From: Cloeon dipterum
Lineage: Eukaryota > Arthropoda > Insecta > Ephemeroptera > Baetidae
NCBI RefSeq assembly: GCF_949628265.1
Contig: NC_088786.1
Span: forward strand, 23,147,681-23,211,680
DNA: 64,000 bases
Direction: 5' to 3'
This document shows positions 34,537 through 51,647 of this stretch, in pieces. The notes beneath the pieces are model-generated. The model had not been told where the DNA came from. It saw nothing but the letters and a program-made list of their open reading frames with translations, and made no database searches. Made by a program: the position numbers and the translations under genes. Within the stretch, counting starts at the first letter, position 1. Each line of letters begins with the position of its first letter.

Positions 34537-34545
34537 TATTTATAA
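34537..34545. repeat. Left 9-bp target-site duplication
   Basis: TATTTATAA stands immediately outside the left end of the transposon and is repeated exactly at 51639-51647. Nine base pairs is the usual Mutator-superfamily duplication. Confidence 0.85.
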
Positions 34546-34554
34546 GGAAATAGA

Positions 34555-34825
34555 TATATATACAACAAAGTTGTATATACAACAATGTATATCCTATATA
34601 TACAACAATGTTGTATACCTACAACAATGAATAACCTATATATACAACAATGTTGTATACCTACAACAACGGTATATCCTATATATACAACAATGTTGTA
34701 TACCTACAACAACGGTATATCCTATATATACAACAATTGTTGTATACCTACAACAACGGTATATCCTATATATACAACAATTGTTGTATACCTACAACAA
34801 CGGTATGTCCTATACCTACAACAAT
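34555..34825. repeat. Subterminal palindromic minisatellite (left)
   Basis: About six units of 43-45 bp with core TATATACAACAATTGTTGTA or the variant with ...CAATGTTGTA, then TACCTACAACAACGG. Each unit contains a near-perfect palindrome. Subterminal repeats of this kind often bind transposase; that role is inferred. Confidence 0.85.
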
Positions 34826-34829
34826 AGCA

Positions 34830-35192
34830 ATCTGGCAACATCGCAGAATGGGCGGCAACGACAAGCACTGAAAAGCCCGTGGACGACACCGACTGCCGGC
34901 GCCGGCTCACGGTCGTCGCCGCCATCTTGCCAAGCGGAGAGCGGAGCGCGGACCGGAGCGGAACTGTGAAAATTCCGGAAAACGAAGCCACGAGCACCAG
35001 AAAACAGGAAATGCTAGTGGTAAGCGAACAAAGAAAGCGGTCGCCAACTTTGCAAATCACACAGGAAGATTCGCCGTATTGTTCACAGGGACAAACGACC
35101 TGGGGACGACCCTGCGCGTCCAAGTCTGAACGGTGCCGATTCCCGCGTGGCATGGACACGACCCGAGGAAGGAAGGATTTGGCCTTGTTGAG
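34830..35192. promoter_or_regulatory. GC-rich subterminal block with YY1-like motif (left)
   Basis: CGCCGCCATCTTG (34917-34929) is the reverse of the YY1/Pho consensus with ATGGCGGC, set in GC-rich DNA that differs sharply from the AT-rich tips. Its mirror in the right TIR, read on the minus strand, points towards the transposase gene, so this may be the element's promoter. No TATA box is evident. Confidence 0.45.
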
Positions 35193-37010
35193 GTGAGTTT
35201 TAGCAGTGAAATTAGCACTGTGGGCTAATAATAAACCTGCCTTGTCTAGGTTGAGCAGCAGGCCCAGCAAATGTCGTCCGCAGTGGCGACGAAATGCAAA
35301 ACAGGACACCTGGACGGTGCCGATTTTTGTTCGGTCGAGGAAGGAAGGGTTAGGCCTTGTTGAGGTGAGATTTAGCAGTGAAATTAGCACTGTGGGCTAA
35401 TAATAAACCTGCCTTGTCTAGGTTGAGCAGCAGGCCCAGCAAATGTCGTCCGCAGTGGCGTTCAAATGCAAAACAGGACACCTGGACGGTGCAGATTTTT
35501 GTGCGGTCGAGGAAGGAAGGGTTAGGCCTTGTTGAGGTGAGTATTTTAGCAGTGAAATTAGCACTGTGGGCTAATAATAAACCTGCCTTGTCTAGGTTGA
35601 GCAGCAGGCCCAGCAAATGTCGTCCGCAGTGGCGTTCAAATGCAAAACATGACACCTGGACGGTGCAGATTTTTGTGCGGTCGAGGAAGGAAGGGTTAGG
35701 CCTTGTTGAGGTGAGTATTTTAGCAGTGAAATTAGCACTGTGGGCTAATAATAAACCTGCCTTGTCTAGGTTGAGCAGCAGGCCCAGCAAATGTCGTCCG
35801 CAGTGGCGACGAAATGCAAAACAGGACACCTGGATGGTGCCGATTTTTTTTCGGTCGAGGAAGGAAGATTTTTGTGCGGTCGAGGAAGGAAGGGTTAGGC
35901 CTTGTTGAGGTGAGTATTTTAGCAGTGAAATTAGCACTGTGGGCTAATAATAAACCTGCCTTGTCTAGGTTGAGCAGCAGGCCCAGCAAATGTCGTCCGC
36001 AGTGGCGTTCAAATGCAAAACATGACACCTGGACGGTGCAGATTTTTGTGCGGTCGAGGAAGGAAGGGTTAGGCCTTGTTGAGGTGAGTATTTTAGCAGT
36101 GAAATTAGCACTGTGGGCTAATAATAAACCTGCCTTGTCTAGGTTGAGCAGCAGGCCCAGCAAATGTCGTCCGCAGTGGCGTTCAAATGCAAAACATGAC
36201 ACCTGGACGGTGCAGATTTTTGTTCGGTCGAGGAAGGAAGGGTTAGGCCTTGTTGAGGTGAGTATTTTAGCAGTGAAATTAGCACTGTGGGCTAATAATA
36301 AACCTGCCTTGTCTAGGTTGAGCAGCAGGCCCAGCAAATGTCGTCCGCAGTGGCGTTCAAATGCAAAACATGACACCTGGACGGTGCAGATTTTTGTGCG
36401 GTCGAGGAAGGAAGGGTTAGGCCTTGTTGAGGTGAGTATTTTAGCAGTGAAATTAGCACTGTGGGCTAATAATAAACCTGCCTTGTCTAGGTTGAGCAGC
36501 AGGCCCAGCAAATGTCGTCCGCAGTGGCGTTCAAATGCAAAACATGACACCTGGACGGTGCAGATTTTTGTGCGGTCGAGGAAGGAAGGGTTAGGCCTTG
36601 TTGAGGTGAGTATTTTAGCAGTGAAATTAGCACTGTGGGCTAATAATAAACCTGCCTTGTCTAGGTTGAGCAGCAGGCCCAGCAAATGTCGTCCGCAGTG
36701 GCGACGAAATGCAAAACAGGACACCTGGATGGTGCCGATTTTTTTTCGGTCGAGGAAGGAAGATTTTTGTGCGGTCGAGGAAGGAAGGGTTAGGCCTTGT
36801 TGAGGTGAGTATTTTAGCAGTGAAATTAGCACTGTGGGCTAATAATAAACCTGCCTTGTCTAGGTTGAGCAGCAGGCCCAGCAAATGTCGTCCGCAGTGG
36901 CGACGAAATGCAAAACAGGTCACCTGGACGGTGCCGATTTTTGTTCGGTCGAGGAAGGAAGGGTTAGGTCTTGTTGAGGTGAGTTTTAACAGTGAAATTA
37001 GCACTGGGCT
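35193..37010. repeat. Tandem array of ~174-bp units (left TIR)
   Basis: Units begin at GTGAG positions 35193, 35365, 35537, 35711, 35910, 36084, 36258, 36432, 36606, 36805 and 36979. The spacings are 172, 172, 174, 199, 174, 174, 174, 174, 199 and 174. The 199-bp units carry a 25-bp internal duplication around CGGTCGAGGAAGGAAG. Because 174 is 58 codons, long open frames arise on both strands. I take these as by-products, since different frames and both strands are open and no protein family is recognisable. Each unit contains a strong 5' splice consensus, GAG|GTGAGT. Confidence 0.95.
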
Positions 37011-37111
37011 GATTTGGATCTGTATTTTGGGCCATTATTTCTCGATTTTCTTTGGTGGAACTTGATTTTCTATTCATAATAATCATACATAAACAGATTG
37101 CATATAATATG

Positions 37112-38551
37112 TATGGCGGAGACACAATTCTGGGCCAGTCCACACTTCTGGGCCACTTCCATAAGAAAAGCATTGATTTTATGGATTTTATTGTTGTGAC
37201 CCACGTGATTTTAAATTGAACCAATTGGTTCAAAGTTTTTTGGTTCAAAGGGGGACAAAAATTGAACCAAATCCTTAATGCAATGATTTCAAATAAAGAA
37301 CCAATTGGTTTAATGAATAAATTTTCAAAATTTTAAATATATTTTAAATTTAGATGCAATTTGCACTTTTCGCACCTAAGGATGAATAGACTGATTAAGT
37401 CTTGTAATTTAATTGGCTGAAAACACATAACTTAATTAGTTCTTACCTGGATTCGAACCTTGTGATTTGTGAGCACATCCTCTACCCTCTGCACCACTCG
37501 CGTAACGGTATATGTTTTAAAAATTTGACGTATATATATCAAATAGGAAAAAACCGTGGAAGATGCGCCTGCTTTTAGTGACTAATCAGCCATTATGTGA
37601 GAAAACGTCCTGATTTAACTTATATTCTACTCTCATTGGGCCAGTTGCAACATTAAATATACCTACAAAAACTTATTAATAAAGATTTCCGGGGTTATGT
37701 ACCAATAAAATTTTCAAATTTTTATAAAAGGTTTGTTTTTTGGCATTTGGTTATTTGCAAGAAATTAAAAAATGATTGCACACACCATTTGATGTTGGCA
37801 AATAATGAGTTAATAAACTGAAAAAAATTGAGAAATTTTTAATTTTGTGGTACTGAAACATATGAAGTTTTTGGTTCTCTGAATGAAAACAGCAATGTAG
37901 CAAAATTATACATTCCACCCCATCAATACTTAAAATGTTATTCTATATTGAAACCTAAAAAATATGAACCAAATTCCCTGTTTTCTTGTGCATAGTGATT
38001 GTTTAATTAATGAAAGGAGTTAAAATTTAATCGGATCATAACATAATTTTTAAGATGTTCATATGGAAAAAATCCAAAGTTTTTATTCGTTTTTTCCTAA
38101 ATATTAACCAAAATATTTACATTATTCTGAGTCAAAAATACATACGAATGCTTGAAGTTTTGATTCTTTGTTGCAAATTATTGAACCAATAGATACTCTT
38201 AAACAAACTTTGCTTCTATTTTTTAGAAATAAAGAACCAAAACTCTGTTACAGACATGATTTGATTCTTTATTTTAAAAAATTGAACCAAAACTTCTGTA
38301 TGTTGCTTCATTAAAACAAAAAATGGAACCAACTTGGTTCATTGATTTGATTTTGAACCAAAATTGGTTCTATTAATAGGATAATTGCATCAATTGGTTC
38401 AAAAAAGTGCAATCTTTGAACCAAATGACCAAAATTGAACCAATTGGTTCAATTTAAAATCACGTGGGGCCCCATCAACAATGAAAACAATGCTATTTAA
38501 ATGGAAGTGGCCCAGAAGTGTGGAATGGCCCAGAATTGTGTCTCCGCCATA
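37112..38551. repeat. 1.44-kb module with its own inverted ends, inside the left TIR
   Basis: It starts TATGGCGGAGACACAATTCT and ends with the reverse complement of the same sequence. The arms continue through GGCCCAGAAGTGTGG, GGAAGTGGCCC, CACGTG and GAACCAATTGGTTC on both sides. Between the arms lie many GAACCAA/TTGGTTC motifs and a tRNA-like segment. It looks like an older non-autonomous element, or a former TIR pair, captured by the larger transposon. The mirror copy lies at about 47650-49090. Confidence 0.8.
37443..37507 (-). other. tRNA-like segment (left TIR)
   Basis: On the minus strand it has a perfect B box GGTTCGAATCC (37459-37449 read downwards) and, about 30 nt before it, GTGGTGCAGAGGGTAGAG, which resembles a D arm/A box. 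I could not fold a convincing full cloverleaf or assign an anticodon, so it is probably a tRNA-derived relic or a Pol III promoter remnant. Confidence 0.45.
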
Positions 38552-38781
38552 TGTAAAATATTATCAAAATGCAAACAGAGAATGTATACATGCAAATATA
38601 TGTACCATAACTTTTAGCGCATTAAAACCTGCCTTGTCTAGGTTGAGCAGCAGGCCCAGCAAATGTCGTCCGCAGTGGCGTTCAAATGCAAAACAGGACA
38701 CCTGGACGGTGCCGATTTTTGTGCGGTCGAGGAAGGAAGGGTTAGGCCTTGTTGAGGTGAGTTTTAGCAGTGAAATTAGCA

Positions 38782-40089
38782 ATTCATTTATTAAGGAAAT
38801 TTATATATAAGGTCAAATTCAAGTACATTAGAATTTTGGTAATATATCACGCAAGACGTGGGAAAGGAGTGTTTGATAGGAGTCTTGTGTACTTACTTGT
38901 TGATGTTACGAACACACAAAAGATGAGGAGATAGTTTGTTTGGAGAAATTTTCGGCACTGCATGTGTGAGTGCCTTCGTCAGCTCGCGTAGGTAGAATGA
39001 GATGAGAGCGGTGATGATGTAGGAGTACACACGTTATGGTCAGGGTTTGTGGAGGGGGGAAGGGTAGTTGGTGGAGGTGGTTGTGTGATATATTGCTTGA
39101 TCTTAAAATTTCTATTTTTTACTTTTTATTTACATGGTTAAGTCTTGCTCTGAATTTATTTAAATGTATCTATTTATGCCAGGGACGGTTTGAGATTGGA
39201 AATCGTAAATAAAGGCCTGTTCTAATCTACGTAGGTCGCCGGGGGTTGATTTTTTTGGGAGTGATCTAATTATTTTTACTGTGAAACATTTTTCTAATTC
39301 TCTTTTATTGTGAGAGAGCGCATGTTCAGCTACCGGAACATCTGCTTCACGCCGTACCGTTTGTCTGTGGCCATTCATTCGTGATCTCAGGGTATTTATT
39401 GTTTTGCCAATATAATGGGCGTCGCAAAATTTGCATTGAAGGAAGCAAACTAATTTTTCAGTTGTGCAGGTGTTATGGCCTGAAATAAGGTAATTTTTGC
39501 CTGTGTTTGGGGCTGTCACAGACTTTGCTGGTTTGTGGATTTGGCATGTTTTACACGGCGGGCCTCTTGTGGCTTGGGTTTTGAATTGTTTGCAAGGGTA
39601 TGAGCCTTGTGGGCCTTTTGGTGGCGCCGGGTTTAGATTTTCCGTTGTGGGTTTTTTGCAATAATGTTTGCTAAATTGGCGCTCCTTGAGAATGCGAGAG
39701 TCGCTGGCTCTTTAAAGATATCTTTTGTGACTTTTGACGAAGTAAGGATGTTGGAGGCTAAATTTATTACTTTGCGCATTTTTTCTAAGCTGGGTTGATA
39801 AGGGAGTACTAGCGGAGGTATGGTATTTTCCCTATTATTTTTAGATTTTTTGTGATATATCGTTCTTTTAATTTGCTTTTTAATTAATGACTCGTCATAA
39901 CCTTGTTTTTTGAAAGCATCTGAGATCCTTGTTTTATATTTTTCAAATCCTTCTTCTGTCGTGCATATTCTTTTTCCTTCCTTTACCAAAATTCTAATGT
40001 ATTTGAATTTGACCTTATATATCAATTTCCTTAATATATGAATTTATATTTCCAAAATGGATAATATTTTCATGAAAAATATTGCAATA
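38782..40089 (-). mobile_element. Penelope-like retroelement fragment inserted in the left TIR
   Basis: It interrupts a 174-bp-type unit between GAAATTAGCA and AGCACTGGGCTAATAAT, leaving a probable 4-bp duplication AGCA (38778-38781 and 40090-40093). The right TIR lacks it. Its ends are inverted copies of one ~61-bp sequence (38782-38842 against 39983-40043, about four mismatches), as expected from the inverted partial copies common at Penelope insertions. Only the C-terminal coding part remains. Confidence 0.82.
39160..40025 (-). pseudogene. Penelope-type RT C-terminus plus GIY-YIG endonuclease, truncated and frameshifted
   Basis: The upstream piece (40025-39633) shows the thumb region: PPLVLPYQPSLEKMRKVINL followed by LAFSRSANLANI, as in Penelope reverse transcriptases. 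The downstream piece (39519-39160) has a Cys-rich linker (PPCKTCQIH just before the open frame, then CTTEKLVCFLQCKFCDAHYI) and the GIY-YIG nuclease core YIGKTINTLRSRMNGH. The two are in different frames, with the shift near 39630. The catalytic RT core is absent. The fragment cannot move itself. Confidence 0.85.
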
Positions 40090-40090
40090 A

Positions 40091-40170
40091 GCACTGGGCT
40101 AATAATAAACCTGCCTTGTCTAGGTTGAGCAGCAGGCCAGGTGAATGCCGTCCGCAGTGGCGATTAAGAT
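40091..40170. repeat. Degenerate partial 174-bp-type unit
   Basis: It resumes the interrupted unit after the Penelope insertion (GGCTAATAATAAACCTGCC through GCAGCAGGCC), then diverges with a small deletion. It marks the inner limit of the left repeat region. Confidence 0.8.
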
Positions 40171-40793
40171 TCAGTGCAAGTAACCATGGATATGGAGGGA
40201 GCTGTCATAATCTCCTTGGACTTGATTGGATATCCATGGTAATTAAAATTTCAGAGTTGCATTGACAGCAGCAATTAAAAGTATTGGTATATGGAAGCAT
40301 TTATAATGCAATTTAATTAACATTGTTTCCATTAATAAATATTGAGGATTTTTTAAAACATTTCCGTAATATGCGATATTAATGGAAGTGAATATATTTT
40401 CTATCAATAATATGCGACTGAATGGCAATGAGAGTGTGACCTTCAAAGACACAAGAGTAACTGGTAGAACTGCGATGTTAAGAATTTGCATTTAATCATC
40501 ATAGTCAAAAATTAATTCACATTTTATTTGGAAAAGGATTTTGTTTAAAATAAATTGTAGATCTGCTTGTTTTATGAATGAAAACTAATGTTCGCGGCGA
40601 GTATCTACCAGTATTTTTAAATTTTTAAGAATTAAACGCTGAGTGTTAATGAATGGAAATTTTATTAAATTTTGCTTTTATTGACAAGTATTTGTAATAA
40701 ATAATTGTTTACAATCAAATGTGAACCTATTGAACTGACACACATGAACAGAAATTCATATTGTTTTACATGTTCACAACTTGCTCTCTAATG
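40171..40793. other. 3' flank of the transposase gene
   Basis: AT-rich DNA between the repeat remnant and the stop codon of the minus-strand gene. The ORF at 40243-40491 has no recognisable features. The gene's 3' UTR should lie here. Confidence 0.6.
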
Positions 40794-43700
40794 TCAATCA
40801 TTTACTTGCGAATCTTCACAAGTTGAACTAGCACTGTCTGAGTCATTTAGGCCAAACTCTTTGATTGGCGTCTGCCTGATAGTGACTGTTGCACTCAAAT
40901 TTTTGTCACCACATAGACCACATTTCCAGTTGGCAATTTCCTTGAATGATAAATTCAGGTCACCCTCAATTTCTGCTCTAGGGTGTCCAATACACCTTGG
41001 ATGTAGCCAATTTTCACAAACAGGACACTGCATTGTGCGTTTGTCAAACGATTGGGGCATTTTGCAAATGCAGTAGAGGGGGACAGTAATGACTTCTCGG
41101 ACAGAAGTTGTGTTCTTGGGACCAGGCTTTGCCTTCGAAGGGAAAGCAATCAGTTTGTCAGTCACAAGTAAATAGGCCAAATGGCGCTTCATCAAATTTG
41201 TTACAAAATGCTTGTTGGGATCAACATGGCCATACATAGCAATCTCTGTTGCATTTGCAATAGCAAACAGTCCACAATTGTTAGCATCCTTCTTTTGATA
41301 TTGACAGACCATCTTGTTAATTTTCAACTCATTTAAGTCACAATCTTTGGCGATATGAGCAAACTGAATTTCTGTAGAATCTGCAATTGGCCTATTTCGC
41401 TTTGAATCGTAGTAGAAAAATTCCTTTCCATCAAACCTAACGGTAATCCAATGCGCAAGGGTGTGCAAAATCTGCACGTATTCTTTTTTAAGACAAGCTT
41501 GGTAACAGTCTACTTGCAATTGCACCAGTGCAGGTGACTGAAGTCCTTGATATTTTTCTTCTTTGTCCAGCTTCTCAATAAACATGGCCACAAAGTCATC
41601 AGGCACCTCAATGTTGTTGTCGAAAAATTCTTCAATCAGTTTCACACTAAAAGGTGTTTTTTCCATGAGTAGCTCCTTCAGTTTTTCTATAATATTAAGA
41701 AATTTTGCAAATTTCATTAACGTAACTCATTTGATCATTATATATGCTTCATAATATAATTGCAAATTGTAATTTTTTTACAATATACCATCATCATTTC
41801 CAGCTGGATTCTTGCTCTGCGCGTGCTTCTTCAGCTTGTCCCGGTGCTCGTTACTTGTCCCTTTTGGTCGACCACGGACCTTTGGTTTTAGTGGAAAACC
41901 AATCTTCTGCTGAGAAGTGATGTTTCTCAAAAACTCTGATGCTGGAAGAAGTGAGTTATAATTAGTATGCTCATAATTTATTAATCATGATTTTTGTACC
42001 TGAAGTAATTCTGATTGTATCAAATCCAGGCTCAGTTGCAATATCTCTGCTCTTACTTGCCTCATTTCTGCCTGCATTGTTCTCTGAAATCGAATACATT
42101 GTTTTGGTGAAAAATTTACATTTGTCTTACACACATACCACCTTCTGATTGCTTGCTGTCCAAGCCAGAATTGATTCCAGTGCTGAGAGCTGAAATCTCA
42201 GCCTGGCTTATCTGTTGTAAACCATACTCGCTGATTTCATCTGAACGCAGAAAAAAGAAAAATTAATAATTTCATACTTTACAATCATCTCAGTACCACT
42301 CAGTTTGCTCTGCTCCTGCCTCTCTCTCTGAGAAAGAGCAATGTCTTCTATTTGTGAAATTTGTCTCAGCGCCTCGTCATCGAGAGCTACGGGAGATAGT
42401 TTTTATCAACATTATACAAGATATTGTTGCTGTAAACTAAAAATACCATCATCCTGTTCAACAGCATCAACCTCTGCTTTCTCACTTTTGGTAACGCTTG
42501 TTGTTGCATTTATCATTTCATCAGATTCATCTTGTAACATTGATTGTTAGTGGATAAAATACTCTTAGGGAACGGAGTTTTTACCTATTGTAAGATCAAT
42601 TTCTATCACTTTTTTAGGCGTGCTGCTAATTAGTGGTGGTCCAGCTTTGGCCTCTTTCACATCATCGCTCTTCTCATAAACCTCGACTTCCCCAGAGCTA
42701 TCTTTCTCATTCTCTAAATCCTTGCCAGCGTCTTGACCCCTAGAGCCAAATTCCTCAATTGCAGATTCTTCTTCATGAGCCACTGCAATTTCCACCGAGC
42801 CATCTTTATCCTCCTCGAAATCCTTGCCTGCCTCTTGCCCAGCAGATTCAACTTCTGACACTTCAACCAGCGCCAATCCGTCTTCCGCAGAGCCAATTTC
42901 CCGACCCTGTGACTCCTCAGCTTGCACAGAATAGTTTGCCTGTGCCTCAACATTATTTCCATCATCTTCGCAAGAGACAGAGCAGACTTCTTCAACGTCA
43001 AAAACTCCTACGTCTTCCACTGGACGCAACACATTCGCATTTCTGCCAGCTATAAATGTGAATTAATGTAAATTTCTAGTACAAATCATATTATTATGTA
43101 AAATTACAATTTTTTCCAGCTACAAAGAAAGCTCCTTCAGTGTCAATTAATTGCTTAATCTGCTGCAGGTTCAATAGACTATCGTCAAATTGCTTTGTGC
43201 CAAGGTGTGATGCAGAATCAGCAATTTGCTTGCAGATGGCCAGAGCTCTGTTGTATTTTTGTTCTCGGCTCTGTGCTTTGGTAGCCCTTCTCGGAATTTG
43301 CACTAGCTGACTCTGAAATACATTTTAATTAAAAATACTAAACCAAAGTTCAATATTGTACCACATACCTCATCATTTGTTTCAGAAGGAGGCAGCTGCT
43401 GCTCACAAGTTTGGTATTGAATGGTCCAGCGCATTGGGATTTCCACAGCATCGATCATGGGAAGCCCAATTTCCTTCCTCAGAGCCATGATGTGGTAGCA
43501 AGGTAATTTAATGCCCTTATAGAAAGGGCATTGACAGTTTAGCTCTGTAGTTTTGTAAGTAGTGAAGTATTCCCTCTTGCACAAAGGCACATATTTTTCT
43601 TGCTTTTCGAGCAGAGTGATGCAGTACTCGGTATAATCTTTGAGAGCTTTTCGTGCCTCCGAGACCTCTGCTCCCTGTTGTGGCCTGTATGTGCTAACCT

Positions 43701-45938
43701 TTGTTGTGTAGCAGTGCTTCTTGTATTCAAGGCTTACGGTTTTGTCATATTGGAGCATGATGAGCTTTTTGATAGTAAACACTAGGGATCCATTCCGTTT
43801 AAGAACCATGGATAAGGCTTTATTGTGCGATTCACAATGATTTGTCGTCCGGATTCCGAAGTTCTCTGACATGGACCTGCCAAAAGCAGTCCACATTTCT
43901 TTGCAACTGTGCCAATTCTTGTCATAGTAGGCCCTGAACTTCTGTTTGCTATCCGGAATCAGTTGGCACAGTTTGTTGTAGAGTTCCATGTATACAGCTT
44001 CTGTTCGTGCTTCGAACATTAGTTTCTCGACAATGGCCTGAATTTCTTCTTTGACTTCTGGTGGTGCTGCTGTTCTAGCTTCATTTCGCAAGTGCTTGCT
44101 GCTATGGAACAGACAGTAGTCAACTTGAGCATGTGGGAAAACAGCTTGAATGGCTGCGAATTCTGACATGTCCTTATCGATAAAGACAGTCTTAAGCTCC
44201 CCAGTGTAATTCTTGTGTGCTTCTTGCAGTGCTTGCAGGGCAGATGTCACTGTTGAAGCCCTCTCGTCAGCCAAAACACTATAACCAACCACTCTCCCTG
44301 CTCTATTTCCATCGACCACCATGAAGCATGTGATTGGTAACCGATATGCATTTTTGTTGTAGGTTGAATCAAACAGGAGCAGCTCTGGAAATTTTGCGTA
44401 ATTCTTCTTCATCTCTGAGGTTGCGATGAAAAGACATGAGAAGTTGCCCTCCGGACCAGTGATGATTGTGTATGATCCTAATTACAAACATAATATGCAA
44501 TGGTAAGCTCAATTTAGCTGACATTTTCATAAACACTGGATACCTTCAGAGTCCTTTTCAAACAAATCCCTCATAGTTTCTGCTGCAAGCATCAATTCCC
44601 TCTCATGTGGCTCAAAATTTGCATATTTTTCGGTTTCTTCCCTCTTCTTCCTTTGTCTGTGATAAAAAGATGAATATAAACCTGTTTCAAGTAAATTCTA
44701 AATTTGTTTATTTTTTTTCAGGCAATCTATTGGCATGATATGGTTCAGGACTTGGGGTCTAAAGGATTGAGAAAGCCTGGTGTCAGATAAGTGAAACATA
44801 ACAAGTTGATAAATGTGTACTTTGTGAGCTCCTATTTTTTCAGATTCCGGATGGTGGATCTCCATTGGCAAAAAAATAAGCTGGTATGCGAATGTCATAA
44901 ATAATATTCAAACCCTCTGAAACGAGAACTAAAGGTGCATGGAGACAAGATAATACCTAATGAAATCAAAATGTGCTGTCATCGAGAGTTCACTACTTGA
45001 GAGACTCGATTTTAATCATATAACCATCTTTAGAATATTTACATGTGAAAGTATACCATTTTATAATCAATAGAAAATTTTGTAGCCAGATTTTTATGTG
45101 TTATATTGATATATTACTTCTCATTGTCCAGATCCTTGGGTAGGACTGCTTTCCCCGTCTCCTTCATGATAACCTCTCTTATCTTGGTTGGATTCACTCC
45201 AAGGTCGTCAAGCTGCTGCAGACGCTCCTTCTCTGTGTTGTTCAATCTACGCTGCTTAGGGTATTGTGCAAAATCAGCCGGACATGGTTTGTGCACCTTT
45301 TCATGTACGTCTGTGGTCACGTGACAGTCGTAGATGTATAGCATTTCATTACGAGTGCCCACCTTGAAATAGGCACCACAGCCAAGTTTGTAGGATCTGA
45401 AAAATTATTGTTCCTTATAACAATGTAGCTAATGATATGCAATATTGAAAGAAAAAATTTGGATAATATGTATTGCATACAAAAATCAAAATAATATGTG
45501 CTTAGCATTAAGGATATGTGAAGTTTTTGTATTAATGTATTACAAATAATCACAATTTTCAAATTAAGGGCACATTGTAGTGCAAATTATTCTCATGTTT
45601 CCAATTGCTCAAAATCCCTCATAACTGAATGCACATGTTGGAAAATATGTAATGTATATTTACTTCTGATTGGGGCGCTGCCCTGTCGAACGACCATCAA
45701 CGGGATCTCCATAATGGATACATGCATATTTGGCAGATCTAATGACCAATTTGTTCTTCTTTGTCTCCAATTTGGCCCTGGCCGCTGCATCAACCACCTT
45801 GTCAGAGATTTTTATGTAGTTGCTGCTTAGGCATGTATACACAATGAAGGTTTCTTGTTCCAATGCCTTAATTGCCTCTGAAAGATCACTAAAACTTTTG
45901 AAGGTCTTGCCATTTGTGATTGACAGTGTTTGTGCCAT
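40794..45938 (-). CDS. MULE transposase fused to Ulp1/C48 protease and PHD finger
   Basis: Twelve exons, from the start: 45938-45664, 45396-45118, 44656-44544, 44477-43369, 43312-43108, 43049-42585, 42530-42447, 42386-42297, 42240-42142, 42083-42000, 41941-41789, 41686-40794 (TGA). They sum to 3849 nt, or 1282 aa, with every junction in phase. Residues ~1-185 resemble the N-terminal DNA-binding region of ZSWIM3/FAR1-like proteins. The DDE nuclease has D259 (FDSTY), D323 (FIDKD) and E438 (NHCESHN). A SWIM finger CQC-x9-CYH lies at 537-551. An acidic linker (about 660-930) and a GRPKG AT-hook-like motif (about 955) follow. The C48-type protease shows H1064, D1079, Q1116 and C1123 (DANNCGLFAIA). 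A C4HC3 PHD finger follows at about 1195-1250. DDE and SWIM make it a Mutator transposase; the protease could process SUMO/ubiquitin-like chains, which is inferred. Splicing of exons 5-6 was set by phase. It might instead be two transcripts. Confidence 0.85.
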
Positions 45939-46879
45939 TTTACAAAACCGCTTGAATCACAGATCACATACAGACTAAAGAGCAGGAGCACAAGCAAAGA
46001 GTACCCAGAGCTGCAGATCTAATTGAATTTGAGCAGTGTTGAAACATGTTCTGTTTGCCTGCTGTTCCCCCTCTTACACTCTCAAAGTTCCATTCCCTGA
46101 TTGCAAGTGAAGATGCAATAATAATACTGTGCTGTCACCTCTTTTTGTTTGGAGAATGATGTTTATGTATTTGTAGCCAATCTAGCTGCCGCAGATTCAC
46201 AAAAAAGTTATTGTAAAAAATTGTATTAATAAAACACTGATTGTGTTTTCCCATCGACACCAGAACATTTATTATGAATTTCATAAACATTGGAGTTCTC
46301 TGCTACTTACATGTACAGTCGATTCCATGATGCTAAGATTTACAGTGCAAGCGATATACATCTTGACGTATGAAATCTTAAATACGGGAATGGATATAAT
46401 CACAACCTCTGGCGGCTTTACCTCCTGAATTTCCTGGCTAAACCAGGACCCCCAGCCAACAAAGGGGTGGTCCGAACCGAGGGATTAATAAAATTAAGTG
46501 GGTACAAAATTTTGACTTCCAATCAGGGCCCCCAGCAATGAAAATCCACTTGTGTACTCTACAAACACGTCTGAGAGTCAAGATATCGAAGTGGTCAAAA
46601 ATGAGTAATAAGTATTTATATTCCATTTCTCGGACTATGGGTAGTTCAAAATGTGTATAAGATCTTGGGTGTGATGAAAAATTCAAAGCAGGAATTCATC
46701 AGCGGGAGATAAAATTTATTGATAATGGTTCCAATGCAAGTTATAAAATTTGACTGCCTGTGTAACAATAATGCAAATCATAGTAGGTACCGTTAAATTT
46801 AAGAGAATTGAATTACAGGTTTGCTTATGTAACAATAAATTCCAGGTATAGCAAAATATGTAATGCTACACTGAAAAAC

Positions 46880-46906
46880 TTTTAAGAGCTGTCGTAGCTC
46901 TTAAAA
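46880..46906. repeat. Perfect 11-bp hairpin
   Basis: TTTTAAGAGCT, loop GTCGT, then AGCTCTTAAAA. Read on either strand it looks like a small stem-loop followed by A/T. Its role is unknown. Confidence 0.7.
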
Positions 46907-47046
46907 ATACTTGTCACAGGACGAAATCTCGTGCGGTCGTAGCTCTGTTTAAGGCCAATGCTCGCTCTTCAGAACAGCAGCCGCAGCTCGTCCTAAGTGC
47001 TGTAACAGCAGGAACAGAATAATTTTTGCAAATTCCAATTTCACTG

Positions 47047-47402
47047 CTTCTTTCTACACATTCCTCAAATTGATGGTTCAAGTGATTGACAGTCATCCGT
47101 GAAAAATGTTTACTCACCACTCATTTTAGCATAAATCTAATGGATCACCCAATCCAAAATCCACCTCTAATTCAACCAACGTCCAGTGCACCCATCATCC
47201 ATAATATAATAAAAATTTTTACAGTAAACTAGGTACAATTGAATTCACGGTAACTGTAATTTAATTATATTTTCTCCAAAAAACTGACATACCCCCCCTT
47301 TACCAATATTTTGGATTGGGAGATCATAAGATTCATGCTAAAATGAATGGCGAATAAACATTTGCAAGGATGACTGTCAATTTGAGGTATGTGTAGAAAG
47401 AA
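47047..47402. repeat. Imperfect palindrome with ~100-bp arms beside the right TIR
   Basis: Arm 47047-47157 (CTTCTTTCTACACATTCCTC through CCAATCCAAAA) is the imperfect reverse complement of arm 47302-47402. A ~145-bp spacer holds a T-rich and C-rich stretch. It ends exactly where the right TIR begins, so it may be a remnant of an older element end or a nested MITE. Confidence 0.75.
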
Positions 47403-47649
47403 GCATTATTAGCCCACAGTGCTAATTTCACTGCTAAAACTCACCTCAACAAGGCCTAACCCTTCCTTCCTCGACCGCACAAAAATCGGCACCGTCCAGG
47501 TGTCCTGTTTTGCATTTGAACGCCACTGCGGACGACATTTGCTGGGCCTGCTGCTCAACCTAGACAAGGCAGGTTTTAATGCGCTAAAAGTTATGGTACA
47601 TATATTTGCATGTATACATTCTCTGTTTGCATTTTGATAATATTTTACA

Positions 47650-49090
47650 TATGGCGGAGACACAATTCTGGGCCATTCCACACTTCTGGGCCACTTCCAT
47701 TTAAATAGCATTGTTTTCATTGTTGATGGGGCCCCACGTGATTTTAAATTGAACCAATTGGTTAAATTTTGGTCATTTGGTTCAAAGATTGCACTTTTTT
47801 GAACCAATTGATGCAATTATCCTATTAATAGAACCAATTTTGGTTCAAAATCAAATCAATGAACCAAGTTGGTTCAATTTTTTGTTTTAATGAAGCAACA
47901 TACAGAAGTTTTGGTTCAATTTTTTAAAATAAAGAATCAAATCATGTCTGTAACAGAGTTTTGGTTCTTTATTTCTAAAAAATAGAAGCAAAGTTTGTTT
48001 AAGAGTATCTATTGGTTCAATAATTTGCAACAAAGAATCAAAACTTCAAGCATTCGTATGTATTTTTGACTCAGAATAATGTAAATATTTTGGTTAATAT
48101 TTAGGAAAAAACGAATAAAAACTTTGGATTTTTTCCATATGAACATCTTAAAAATTATGTTATGATCCGATTAAATTTTAACTCCTTTCATTAATTAAAC
48201 AATCACTATGCACAAGAAAACAGGGAATTTGGTTCATATTTTTTAGGTTTCAATATAGAATAACATTTTAAGTATTGATGGGGTGGAATGTATAATTTTG
48301 CTACATTGCTGTTTTCATTCAGAGAACCAAAAACTTCATATGTTTCAGTACCACAAAATTAAAAATTTCTCAATTTTTTTCAGTTTATTAACTCATTATT
48401 TGCCAACATCAAATGGTGTGTGCAATCATTTTTTAATTTCTTGCAAATAACCAAATGCCAAAAAACAAACCTTTTATAAAAATTTGAAAATTTTATTGGT
48501 ACATAACCCCGGAAATCTTTATTAATAAGTTTTTGTAGGTATATTTAATGTTGCAACTGGCCCAATGAGAGTAGAATATAAGTTAAATCAGGACGTTTTC
48601 TCACATAATGGCTGATTAGTCACTAAAAGCAGGCGCATCTTCCACGGTTTTTTCCTATTTGATATATATACGTCAAATTTTTAAAACATATACCGTTACG
48701 CGAGTGGTGCAGAGGGTAGAGGATGTGCTCACAAATCACAAGGTTCGAATCCAGGTAAGAACTAATTAAGTTATGTGTTTTCAGCCAATTAAATTACAAG
48801 ACTTAATCAGTCTATTCATCCTTAGGTGCGAAAAGTGCAAATTGCATCTAAATTTAAAATATATTTAAAATTTTGAAAATTTATTCATTAAACCAATTGG
48901 TTCTTTATTTGAAATCATTGCATTAAGGATTTGGTTCAATTTTTGTCCCCCTTTGAACCAAAAAACTTTGAACCAATTGGTTCAATTTAAAATCACGTGG
49001 GTCACAACAATAAAATCCATAAAATCAATGCTTTTCTTATGGAAGTGGCCCAGAAGTGTGGACTGGCCCAGAATTGTGTCTCCGCCATAC
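47650..49090. repeat. 1.44-kb module with its own inverted ends, inside the right TIR
   Basis: Mirror copy of 37112-38551, with single-base differences only in the parts compared (for example TTTAACC for TTGAACC near one arm). The same TATGGCGGAGACACAATTCT ends and GAACCAA motifs are present. Confidence 0.8.
48692..48758 (+). other. tRNA-like segment (right TIR)
   Basis: Mirror of 37443-37507. The B box GGTTCGAATCC is at 48742-48752, preceded by GTGGTGCAGAGGGTAGAG. It has the same limits: no convincing cloverleaf. Confidence 0.45.
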
Positions 49091-49219
49091 ATATTATATG
49101 CAATCTGTTTATGTATTATTATTATGAATAGAAAATCAAGTTCCACCAAAGAAAATCGAGAAATAATGGCCCAAAATACAGATCCAAATCAGCCCAGTGC
49201 TAATTTCACTGTTAAAACT

Positions 49220-51060
49220 CACCTCAACAAGACCTAACCCTTCCTTCCTCGACCGAACAAAAATCGGCACCATCCAGGTGTCCTGTTTTGCATTTGAACG
49301 CCACTGCGGACGACATTTGCTGGGCCTGCTGCTCAACCTAGACAAGGCAGGTTTATTATTAGCCCACAGTGCTAATTTCACTGCTAAAATACTCACCTCA
49401 ACAAGGCCTAACCCTTCCTTCCTCGACCGCACAAAAATCTGCACCGTCCAGGTGTCATGTTTTGCATTTGAACGCCACTGCGGACGACATTTGCTGGGCC
49501 TGCTGCTCAACCTAGACAAGGCAGGTTTATTATTAGCCCACAGTGCTAATTTCACTGCTAGAATACTCACCTCAACAAGGCCTAACCCTTCCTTCCTCGA
49601 CCGCACAAAAATCTGCACCGTCCAGGTGTCATGTTTTGCATTTGAACGCCACTGCGGACGACATTTGCTGGGCCTGCTGCTCAACCTAGACAAGGCAGGT
49701 TTATTATTAGCCCACAGTGCTAATTTCACTGCTAAAATACTCACCTCAACAAGGCCTAACCCTTCCTTCCTCGACCGCACAAAAATCTTCCTTCCTCGAC
49801 CGAACAAAAATCGGCACCATCCAGGTGTCCTGTTTTGCATTTGAACGCCACTGCGGACGACATTTGCTGGGCCTGCTGCTCAACCTAGACAAGGCAGGTT
49901 TATTATTAGCCCACAGTGCTAATTTCACTGCTAAAATACTCACCTCAACAAGGCCTAACCCTTCCTTCCTCGACCGCACAAAAATCTGCACCGTCCAGGT
50001 GTCATGTTTTGCATTTGAACGCCACTGCGGACGACATTTGCTGGGCCTGCTGCTCAACCTAGACAAGGCAGGTTTATTATTAGCCCACAGTGCTAATTTC
50101 ACTGCTAAAATACTCACCTCAACAAGGCCTAACCCTTCCTTCCTCGACCGCACAAAAATCTTCCTTCCTCGACCGAACAAAAATCGGCACCATCCAGGTG
50201 TCCTGTTTTGCATTTGAACGCCACTGCGGACGACATTTGCTGGGCCTGCTGCTCAACCTAGACAAGGCAGGTTTATTATTAGCCCACAGTGCTAATTTCA
50301 CTGCTAAAATACTCACCTCAACAAGGCCAAATCCTTCCTTCCTCGACCGCACAAAAATCTGCACCGTCCAGGTGTCCTGTTTTGCATTTGAACGCCACTG
50401 CGGACGACATTTGCTGGGCCTGCTGCTCAACCTAGACAAGGCAGGTTTATTATTAGCCCACAGTGCTAATTTCACTGCTAAAATACTCACCTCAACAAGG
50501 CCTAACCCTTCCTTCCTCGACCGCACAAAAATCTGCACCGTCCAGGTGTCATGTTTTGCATTTGAACGCCACTGCGGACGACATTTGCTGGGCCTGCTGC
50601 TCAACCTAGACAAGGCAGGTTTATTATTAGCCCACAGTGCTAATTTCACTGCTAAAATACTCACCTCAACAAGGCCTAACCCTTCCTTCCTCGACCGCAC
50701 AAAAATCTTCCTTCCTCGACCGAACAAAAATCGGCACCATCCAGGTGTCCTGTTTTGCATTTCGTCGCCACTGCGGACGACATTTGCTGGGCCTGCTGCT
50801 CAACCTAGACAAGGCAGGTTTATTATTAGCCCACAGTGCTAATTTCACTGCTAAATCTCACCTCAACAAGGCCTAACCCTTCCTTCCTCGACCGAACAAA
50901 AATCGGCACCGTCCAGGTGTCCTGTTTTGCATTTCGTCGCCACTGCGGACGACATTTGCTGGGCCTGCTGCTCAACCTAGACAAGGCAGGTTTATTATTA
51001 GCCCACAGTGCTAATTTCACTGCTAAAACTCACCTCAACAAGGCCAAATCCTTCCTTCCT
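49220..51060. repeat. Tandem array of ~174-bp units (right TIR)
   Basis: Unit starts (CACCTC) lie at 49220, 49394, 49568, 49742, 49941, 50115, 50314, 50488, 50662, 50859 and 51031. From the outside inwards the spacings are 172, 197, 174, 174, 199, 174, 199, 174, 174 and 174. The left array has the same number of units, but its long units fall at different places and there is one fewer. The two arrays have therefore rearranged separately since the TIRs were last identical. Confidence 0.95.
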
Positions 51061-51404
51061 CGGGTCGTGTCCATGCCACGCGGGAATCGGCACCGTCCAG
51101 ACTTGGACGCGCAGGGTCGTCCCCAGGTCGTTTGTCCCTGTGAACAATACGGCGAATCTTCCTGTGTGATTTGCAAAGTTGGCGACCGCTTTCTTTGTTC
51201 GCTTACCACTAGCATTTCCTGTTTTCTGGTGCTCGTGGCTTCGTTTTCCGGAATTTTCACAGTTCCGCTCCGGTCCGCGCTCCGCTCTCCGCTTGGCAAG
51301 ATGGCGGCGACGACCGTGAGCCGGCGCCGGCAGTCGGTGTCGTCCACGGGCTTTTCAGTGCTTGTCGTTGCCGCCCATTCTGCGATGTTGCCAGATTGCT
51401 ATTG
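51061..51404. promoter_or_regulatory. GC-rich subterminal block with YY1-like motif (right)
   Basis: Mirror of the left block, with CAAGATGGCGGCG at 51297-51309. Its orientation relative to the minus-strand transposase gene would suit a promoter with a long 5' intron. Transcription from here is inferred. Confidence 0.45.
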
Positions 51405-51630
51405 TTGTAGGTATAGGACATACCGTTGTTGTAGGTATACAACAATTGTTGTATATATAGGATATACCGTTGTTGTAGGTATACAACAATTGTTGTATAT
51501 ATAGGATATACCGTTGTTGTAGGTATACAACATTGTTGTATATATAGGATATACCGTTGTTGTAGGTATACAACATTGTTGTATATATAGGTTATTCATT
51601 GTTGTATATACAACTTTGTTGTATATATAT
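51405..51630. repeat. Subterminal palindromic minisatellite (right)
   Basis: Units of GTTGTTGTAGGTATACAACA and TTGTTGTATATATAGGATAT, the reverse of the left tip. It ends in the GATATATAC-type terminus shared by both element ends. Confidence 0.85.
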
Positions 51631-51638
51631 CTATACCC

Positions 51639-51647
51639 TATTTATAA
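51639..51647. repeat. Right 9-bp target-site duplication
   Basis: TATTTATAA, identical to 34537-34545, immediately outside the right end of the transposon. Confidence 0.85.

Follow-up and report, generated by a model that had tools for sequence, protein, structure and literature searches.

A 64,000-nucleotide stretch of the Cloeon dipterum genome (contig NC_088786.1, positions 23,147,681 to 23,211,680 of the forward strand; hereafter the window, numbered from its first letter) contains a minus-strand gene, running from 45938 to 40794, that lies inside a complete transposon. We consider it about 65% probable that its product is the transposase of a large Mutator-like element (MULE) of Rehavkus/Foldback-like type that has been active recently, with a C-terminal protease-like domain and PHD finger that likely serve as a SUMO/ubiquitin eraser in cis. 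The gene is an unusually intact new example of a known fusion, not a new kind.

The gene was rebuilt as 12 exons (3849 nt including the stop, 1282 amino acids) in a single frame, as a preliminary description of this DNA had proposed. All eleven introns are GT-AG, and the phases are compatible throughout, including at the exon 5-6 junction, where that description had asked whether the frame might break. It had also named D259, D323 and E438, the SWIM residues CQC...CYH, the protease residues H1064, D1079, Q1116 and C1123, and a C4HC3 PHD finger; all of these were found where it placed them, the SWIM residues at 537-551 and the first Cys of the PHD finger at 1191. Frame and domain evidence together support a single predicted protein, encoded by a mobile element, that carries a MULE transposase, an Ulp1-like (CE-clan) domain and a PHD finger. 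The exons (from the gene model) and predicted domains are as follows.

45664..45938, minus strand: exon 1, start ATG at 45938
45118..45396, minus strand: exon 2
44544..44656, minus strand: exon 3
43369..44477, minus strand: exon 4, transposase core and SWIM, with D259, D323 and E438
43108..43312, minus strand: exon 5, whose counterpart in the second family described below shares an open reading frame (ORF) with the SWIM part
42585..43049, minus strand: exon 6, acidic linker
42447..42530, minus strand: exon 7
42297..42386, minus strand: exon 8
42142..42240, minus strand: exon 9
42000..42083, minus strand: exon 10
41789..41941, minus strand: exon 11, contains RGRPKG (41859-41876)
40794..41686, minus strand: exon 12, protease-like domain, PHD finger and stop
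45348..45917, minus strand: ZSWIM3_N/FAR1-like N-terminal domain, residues 8-108, exons 1-2 across intron 1 (weak)
44095..44379, minus strand: MULE domain, residues 256-350 (PF10551 at 5.8e-16, above cut-off)
43492..43536, minus strand: SWIM zinc finger, residues 537-551 (PF04434 at 0.00077, 19.4 bits against a cut-off of 19.6)
42517..42609, minus strand: SUMO-interacting motif (SIM)-like sequence VIEIDLTIDESDE, residues 808-820, across the exon 6-7 junction (pattern search)
41133..41645, minus strand: Ulp1-like (CE-clan) cysteine protease domain, about residues 1000-1170 (hhalign; limits approximate)
40911..41072, minus strand: C4HC3 PHD finger, residues 1191-1244 (PF00628 at 1e-4, just under cut-off)

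The enclosing transposon, which the preliminary description had missed, spans 17,093 bp (34546-51638). Its inverted arms match at 96% over 4262 aligned positions, and the inner 2021 bp are 100% identical. Each arm is approximately 4.2 kb long, of which about 1.85 kb is a tandem array. The array units measure 172-199 bp, mostly 174 bp, in both arms, and 44-bp repeats lie near the outer tips. The termini are GGAAATAGATATATATACAACA on the left and GGGTATAGATATATATACAACA on the right, and the perfect 9-bp target-site duplication TATTTATAA is present at both flanks. The outermost bases of the left arm were set by the terminal motif; the inverted match itself starts at 34595.

34537..34545, no strand: left 9-bp target-site duplication TATTTATAA, identical to 51639-51647
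34546..38781, plus strand: left inverted arm, outer part, ending in GGAAATAGATATATATACAACA; inverted match to the right arm from 34595-38781
35164..37006, plus strand: left-arm tandem array, 1843 bp, in 172-199-bp units
38782..40085, minus strand: nested insertion with a GIY-YIG-like ORF (GIY-YIG 17.7 bits, cut-off 22.6)
40086..40167, plus strand: left arm inner end, past the nested insertion, its start taken from the match to copy c3
47405..51638, minus strand: right inverted arm, ending in GGGTATAGATATATATACAACA, from the inverted match to the left arm and the terminal motif
49195..51062, minus strand: right-arm tandem array, 1868 bp, in 172-199-bp units
51639..51647, no strand: right 9-bp target-site duplication TATTTATAA, identical to the left copy

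Recent movement is indicated by the distribution of this element in its own genome (190,111,064 bases in 10 contigs). Five near-identical copies were found, one on C1 (the window element, c1) and four on C3 (c2 to c5), with lengths from c1 to c5 of 17,093, 14,482, 13,024, 13,681 and 14,658 bp. Each of the five is flanked by a different perfect 9-bp duplication and retains the unbroken 1282-codon frame and all splice dinucleotides. Pairs of copies differ by 1-12 substitutions over ~6840 internal bases; a 90-column gap separates c3 and a 2-column gap occurs in c5. Relative to c1, the predicted protein has one amino-acid difference in each of c2, c3 and c4, and two in c5. Five near-identical, intact copies, each with its own perfect duplication, thus point to recent movement of the family. 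A 334-bp arm probe matched at least 10 places in the genome, and the ten that were scored correspond to both arms of each of the five copies. Within the limits of these matches, the counts being lower bounds, neither solo arms nor miniature derivatives were seen, which indicates that the family either arrived recently or underwent a recent burst.

Across the five copies, each arm carries between 4 and 12 array unit motifs. One 174-bp unit of the left arm is split by the nested insertion, which we take to be a truncated Penelope-like element. Beyond it, 40107-40167 matches 47516-47576 in inverted orientation at 89%, and 40095-40167 matches an array unit. Four of the five copies carry the nested insertion, so that the composite itself has multiplied by transposition. 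We do not claim c3, which lacks it, as an empty site; its match table also lacks neighbouring left-arm sequence, and the loss is therefore explicable by recombination between 174-bp units. At the inner edge of the right arm, a palindromic segment (47045-47405, complementary arms 97% and 87%) is perhaps a small nested insertion resembling a miniature inverted-repeat transposable element. The terminal variant on the 3' side of the gene is GGAA in c1 and c5, and GGGT in c2, c3 and c4. The placement of the terminal variants also differs between the two copies of the second family. These placements suggest that recombination between the arms has inverted the inside of the element.

Assignment of the core to the MULE superfamily agrees with both protein and ends. 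The RNase-H core carries D-D-E, and the element has inverted termini with a 9-bp duplication in 5/5 copies, within the 8-11 bp required of the superfamily. In the Pfam scan, PF21056 (ZSWIM1-3 RNaseH-like) matched residues 217-341 at 2.5e-26, above cut-off. The N-terminal domain, also missed in the preliminary description, matched ZSWIM3_N at 0.0012 and FAR1 at 0.067, both under cut-off. In NCBIfam the core matched IS256 at 1.9e-10, under cut-off, and in PHROGs it matched two transposase families (1.5e-06 and 0.0007) along with a chance-level ligase. There was no match to the core in the PDB.

Relatives in the same genome bear on the joining of transposase to tail. A second family has two copies (on C2 and C4) that are 99.8% identical over 11.6 kb, with ~2.5-kb arms containing tandem repeats. 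Both are flanked by perfect 9-bp duplications, AACTAAAAT and AAACAAAAA, and their ends are GGGTRATKATATATACACGG. A third family is represented by L027/L028 on C3, where element ends were sought and not found. In both families, transposase, SWIM, linker, protease-like domain and PHD follow one another in the same order as here, at 30-47% identity in domain stretches and 23% in one linker stretch; over exon 12 the identity is about 33-34%. In the second family, the counterparts of the second half of exon 4 and of exon 5 form one ORF. In the third, a phase-1 intron immediately preceding the protease domain is retained, as read by eye, and RGRPK lies upstream of it. Domain order kept in these diverged families supports one fused protein, and these observations are the best available argument that the proposed joins are real. 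Together with the intact frame and splice sites of all five copies, they are more than chance would give. No relatives were found in viral contigs or in one scan of prokaryote genomes. The seven duplications of the window and second families are rich in A+T, which makes up 54 of their 63 letters, compared with 60% of the window. As a separate observation, the inverted arms of the second family (L022-L023 and L025-L026) extend into the end of its own PHD exon, and part of the PHD-coding sequence is therefore present in both arms.

We then considered what the tail might do. Utilizing hhalign, we compared a three-family profile of the protease-like domain with a two-sequence profile of C48 proteases from the same genome (two of three fetched stretches were used). 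The match had a probability of 82.1 (E 1e-5) at 22% identity, with H, D, Q and C in register, and an unrelated control gave 0.2. A ULP-annotated PDB chain also matched the domain (0.018), its H, Q and NCG lining up with those of exon 12. Other matches to exon 12 were weak and under cut-off: ElaD/SseL_C (0.0071) and Josephin (0.0098) in Pfam, and ElaD/SseL (0.042) in NCBIfam. PHROGs gave one unknown family at 0.36. The H-D-Q-C set is intact in both the window and second families, and it is untouched by the few amino-acid changes that distinguish the five copies.

The identity of the predicted PHD finger is secure at the level of sequence. PF00628 matched at 0.0006 with the whole protein and 1e-4 with exon 12 (20.2-22.7 bits, against a cut-off of 24), and it matched all three members of alignment A1, the best at 1.7e-07 under a lax limit of E 10. 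The PHD fingers of PHF2 and BPTF matched at 1.9e-07 and 1.5e-06, respectively. Two further motifs lie upstream of the protease-like domain. A strict SIM pattern, chosen after viewing the sequence, is present at VIEIDLTIDESDE; of 2000 shuffled versions of the linker, none contained it. VIEIDLTIDESDE presumably resembles the motifs of PIAS proteins; a PDB search with this peptide gave no match. RGRPKG in exon 11 is what we take to be an AT-hook-like motif; RGRPK is found in L027 as well, and GRPK in the second family.

Several observations weigh against our main reading of the gene and its tail. Peptidase_C48 had no Pfam match at E up to 5 or 10, most matches above ~0.1 being filtered. The preliminary label of an Ulp1/C48-like protease stands in part: H-D-Q-C are in register with the C48 profile in hhalign, but the Pfam profile search does not bear out the C48 assignment, and we accept the domain as a predicted Ulp1-like, CE-clan domain but not as a C48 member by the Pfam test. 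The single-sequence structure model of exon 12 had a mean predicted local distance difference test score of 32.9. In the third family (L027), the protease keeps H, while D is replaced by N, Q by N and C by S. A degraded relative on C5 (L041) contains stops, and neither protease nor PHD was detected in the 9 kb fetched. The looser SIM pattern is not significant in the linker (two observed, a count reached in 7.9% of shuffles), and it is absent from the ORF segments of both relatives. At the presumed cage positions, the PHD finger keeps only two of the four methyl-lysine cage residues, the first Tyr and the Trp, with the middle two lost. Copy c5 has Y1190N, at the first Tyr of this presumed cage. 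Because D, Q and C are lost in L027, catalysis is not universal and would be dispensable or replaced in the third family. The L027 exon itself (L027:6691-7494, at 5.46 Mb on C3) is an open protease-PHD exon with D, Q and C replaced, and its protease domain appears to be a pseudoenzyme relative.

The reading we prefer, a recently mobile MULE transposase with a candidate eraser in its tail, would operate as follows. The N-terminal zinc-finger-like domain and SWIM may bind the repeated arms, and the DDE RNase-H core would cut and join, leaving the 9-bp duplications that are seen at each copy. The same predicted polypeptide would continue through an acidic linker, with its SIM-like and AT-hook-like motifs, into the Ulp1-like protease and PHD finger. 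Most likely this tail would act in cis: held in place by SUMO and histone contacts, with the PHD finger reading histones, it would strip SUMO or some ubiquitin-like tag during transposition, either from the transposase or from nearby chromatin and repair proteins. SUMO removal by the protease and guidance of insertion by the PHD finger, both suggested in the preliminary description, stay conjectural. A broader proposal is that in Rehavkus-type MULEs as a group one protein cuts DNA, erases SUMO/ubiquitin and reads histones, the eraser being old, active in some families and a pseudoenzyme in others. We hold this group-wide proposal tentatively, and think it more doubtful than not.

The state of the protease-like domain in L027 raises the possibility that it is a non-catalytic SUMO/ubiquitin binder recruiting the transposase to modified chromatin, with cleavage incidental. 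That family keeps the domain and the PHD finger in an open frame without D, Q and C, and the SIM-like motif in the linker would suit such a role. However, H-D-Q-C is intact in the window and second families and is untouched by the differences among the five copies, and we judge this explanation unlikely. Slightly better placed, though still improbable, is alternative splicing, in which a separate transposase would end after exon 4 or 5 and the linker would occur in longer or shorter forms. Exons 6-11 (42000-43049 and 41789-41941; 465, 84, 90, 99, 84 and 153 nt) all start in phase 1 and are all phase 1-1; being symmetric and divisible by 3, each could be skipped in frame. Exon 4 also reads in frame beyond its donor to a stop. 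Conversely, in the second family the sequence homologous to exon 5 runs on unbroken from the SWIM ORF, and the splice dinucleotides are all kept in the five copies.

A protein predicted as a single long chain, its two halves joined by an acidic linker, could also suit polyprotein processing, with the protease freeing parts of its own polypeptide and not acting on SUMO. There is no cleavage-site evidence, however, and the domain came closest to deubiquitinase, ULP and C48 proteases among the relatives found; we give this little credence. Least probable by far is a domesticated host gene derived from a MULE. The best Pfam match is to the ZSWIM1-3 model, named after host proteins, but all five copies, nearly identical in sequence, have complete arms and each a perfect 9-bp duplication of its own, which refutes domestication at this locus. 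Nor do we favour recent capture of a host C48 gene, as the host match is distant (22%) and the domain is common to relatives that are ~33-34% identical in exon 12.

Joining of a protease to a transposase in an animal element had been put forward in the preliminary description as a notable parallel to plants. Such fusions are already on record in animals and are thus no novelty there: Bao et al. 2010 (PMC2836005) report C-terminal Ulp1 or OTU domains in Ginger1 transposases, Ulp1 with PHD in Ginger1-9_HM of Hydra, and Ulp1 in Hydra and lancelet Mutator elements. A figure legend in the same paper describes an alignment of Ulp1 and PHD domains in which both Ginger1 and Mutator transposases are included, and the authors already propose that the domain acts in transposition via SUMO/ubiquitin control of repair. 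The window gene resembles these in its C-terminal Ulp1-like domain and, as in Ginger1-9_HM, its pairing with PHD in an animal DNA transposon. Ginger1, however, has a Gypsy-integrase-like core and CCGG/CCGT duplications (PMC2836005). The likeness to the Hydra and lancelet Mutator elements is by description, not by sequence (PMC2836005).

The proposed parallel with plant Kaonashi elements holds loosely. They and other ULP-bearing plant MULEs share with the window element a MULE with an Ulp1-like sequence. In Kaonashi, though, the ULP sequence is reverse to mudrA in a non-TIR (terminal inverted repeat) MULE, and by the published definition of KI-MULEs (PMC2528002) the window element falls outside, its protease being in the same strand and frame and its TIRs long. 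ULP sequences in MULEs of melon, rice and grapevine occur in either orientation, with or without TIRs, and in grapevine downstream of the transposase ORF (PMC2528002, PMC13317346).

By anatomy, the element fits Rehavkus best. Rehavkus elements are described as having a 9-bp duplication, a PHD finger, a minisatellite and arthropod or annelid hosts (PMC6446971). Rehavkus-1_TC of Tribolium (Repbase) is 9.5 kb long, with tandem 164-bp units in its inverted ends, mostly in rows of five and eight (PMC10218199). The window element shares the 9-bp duplication, as does the second family, a PHD finger in the predicted transposase (PHF2-type match), satellite units in the termini of all five copies and an arthropod host. 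The genome gave 94 matches, out of 97 candidates, to Chitin_bind_4, a family characteristic of arthropods. The window element differs in its arms of ~4.2 kb with mostly 174-bp units in a 17-kb element, against TIRs of 26-400 bp (PMC6446971, Table 1). An Ulp1-like domain is not mentioned for Rehavkus in the descriptions examined (PMC6446971, PMC10218199). The Tm1 Mutator/Foldback elements of root-knot nematodes likewise have variable Foldback-like composite inverted repeats, 9-bp duplications and a MULE transposase, but that transposase is Phantom-like, of 496 amino acids, and neither protease nor PHD is mentioned in the abstract (PMC3169594). A 2026 survey of arthropod MULEs gives complete lengths of 1.4-10.0 kb, a range exceeded by all five copies of the window family (13.0-17.1 kb); none of the terms Ulp1, protease, peptidase, PHD and SWIM turned up in a search of its main text (PMC13359780).

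In the literature examined on animal fusions, we found no test of the proposed role of Ulp1 in transposition. The role of the Ulp1-like tail is testable here, because there are five intact, recent copies with defined ends, together with relatives in the same genome in which the active site is kept or lost. Our results also suggest a link between Rehavkus-type anatomy and an Ulp1-PHD module, one that goes unmentioned in the Rehavkus descriptions examined. If the group-wide proposal is true, these transposons would bring along the tools to alter chromatin marks of the host wherever they leave or insert, at the donor site as well as the target site.

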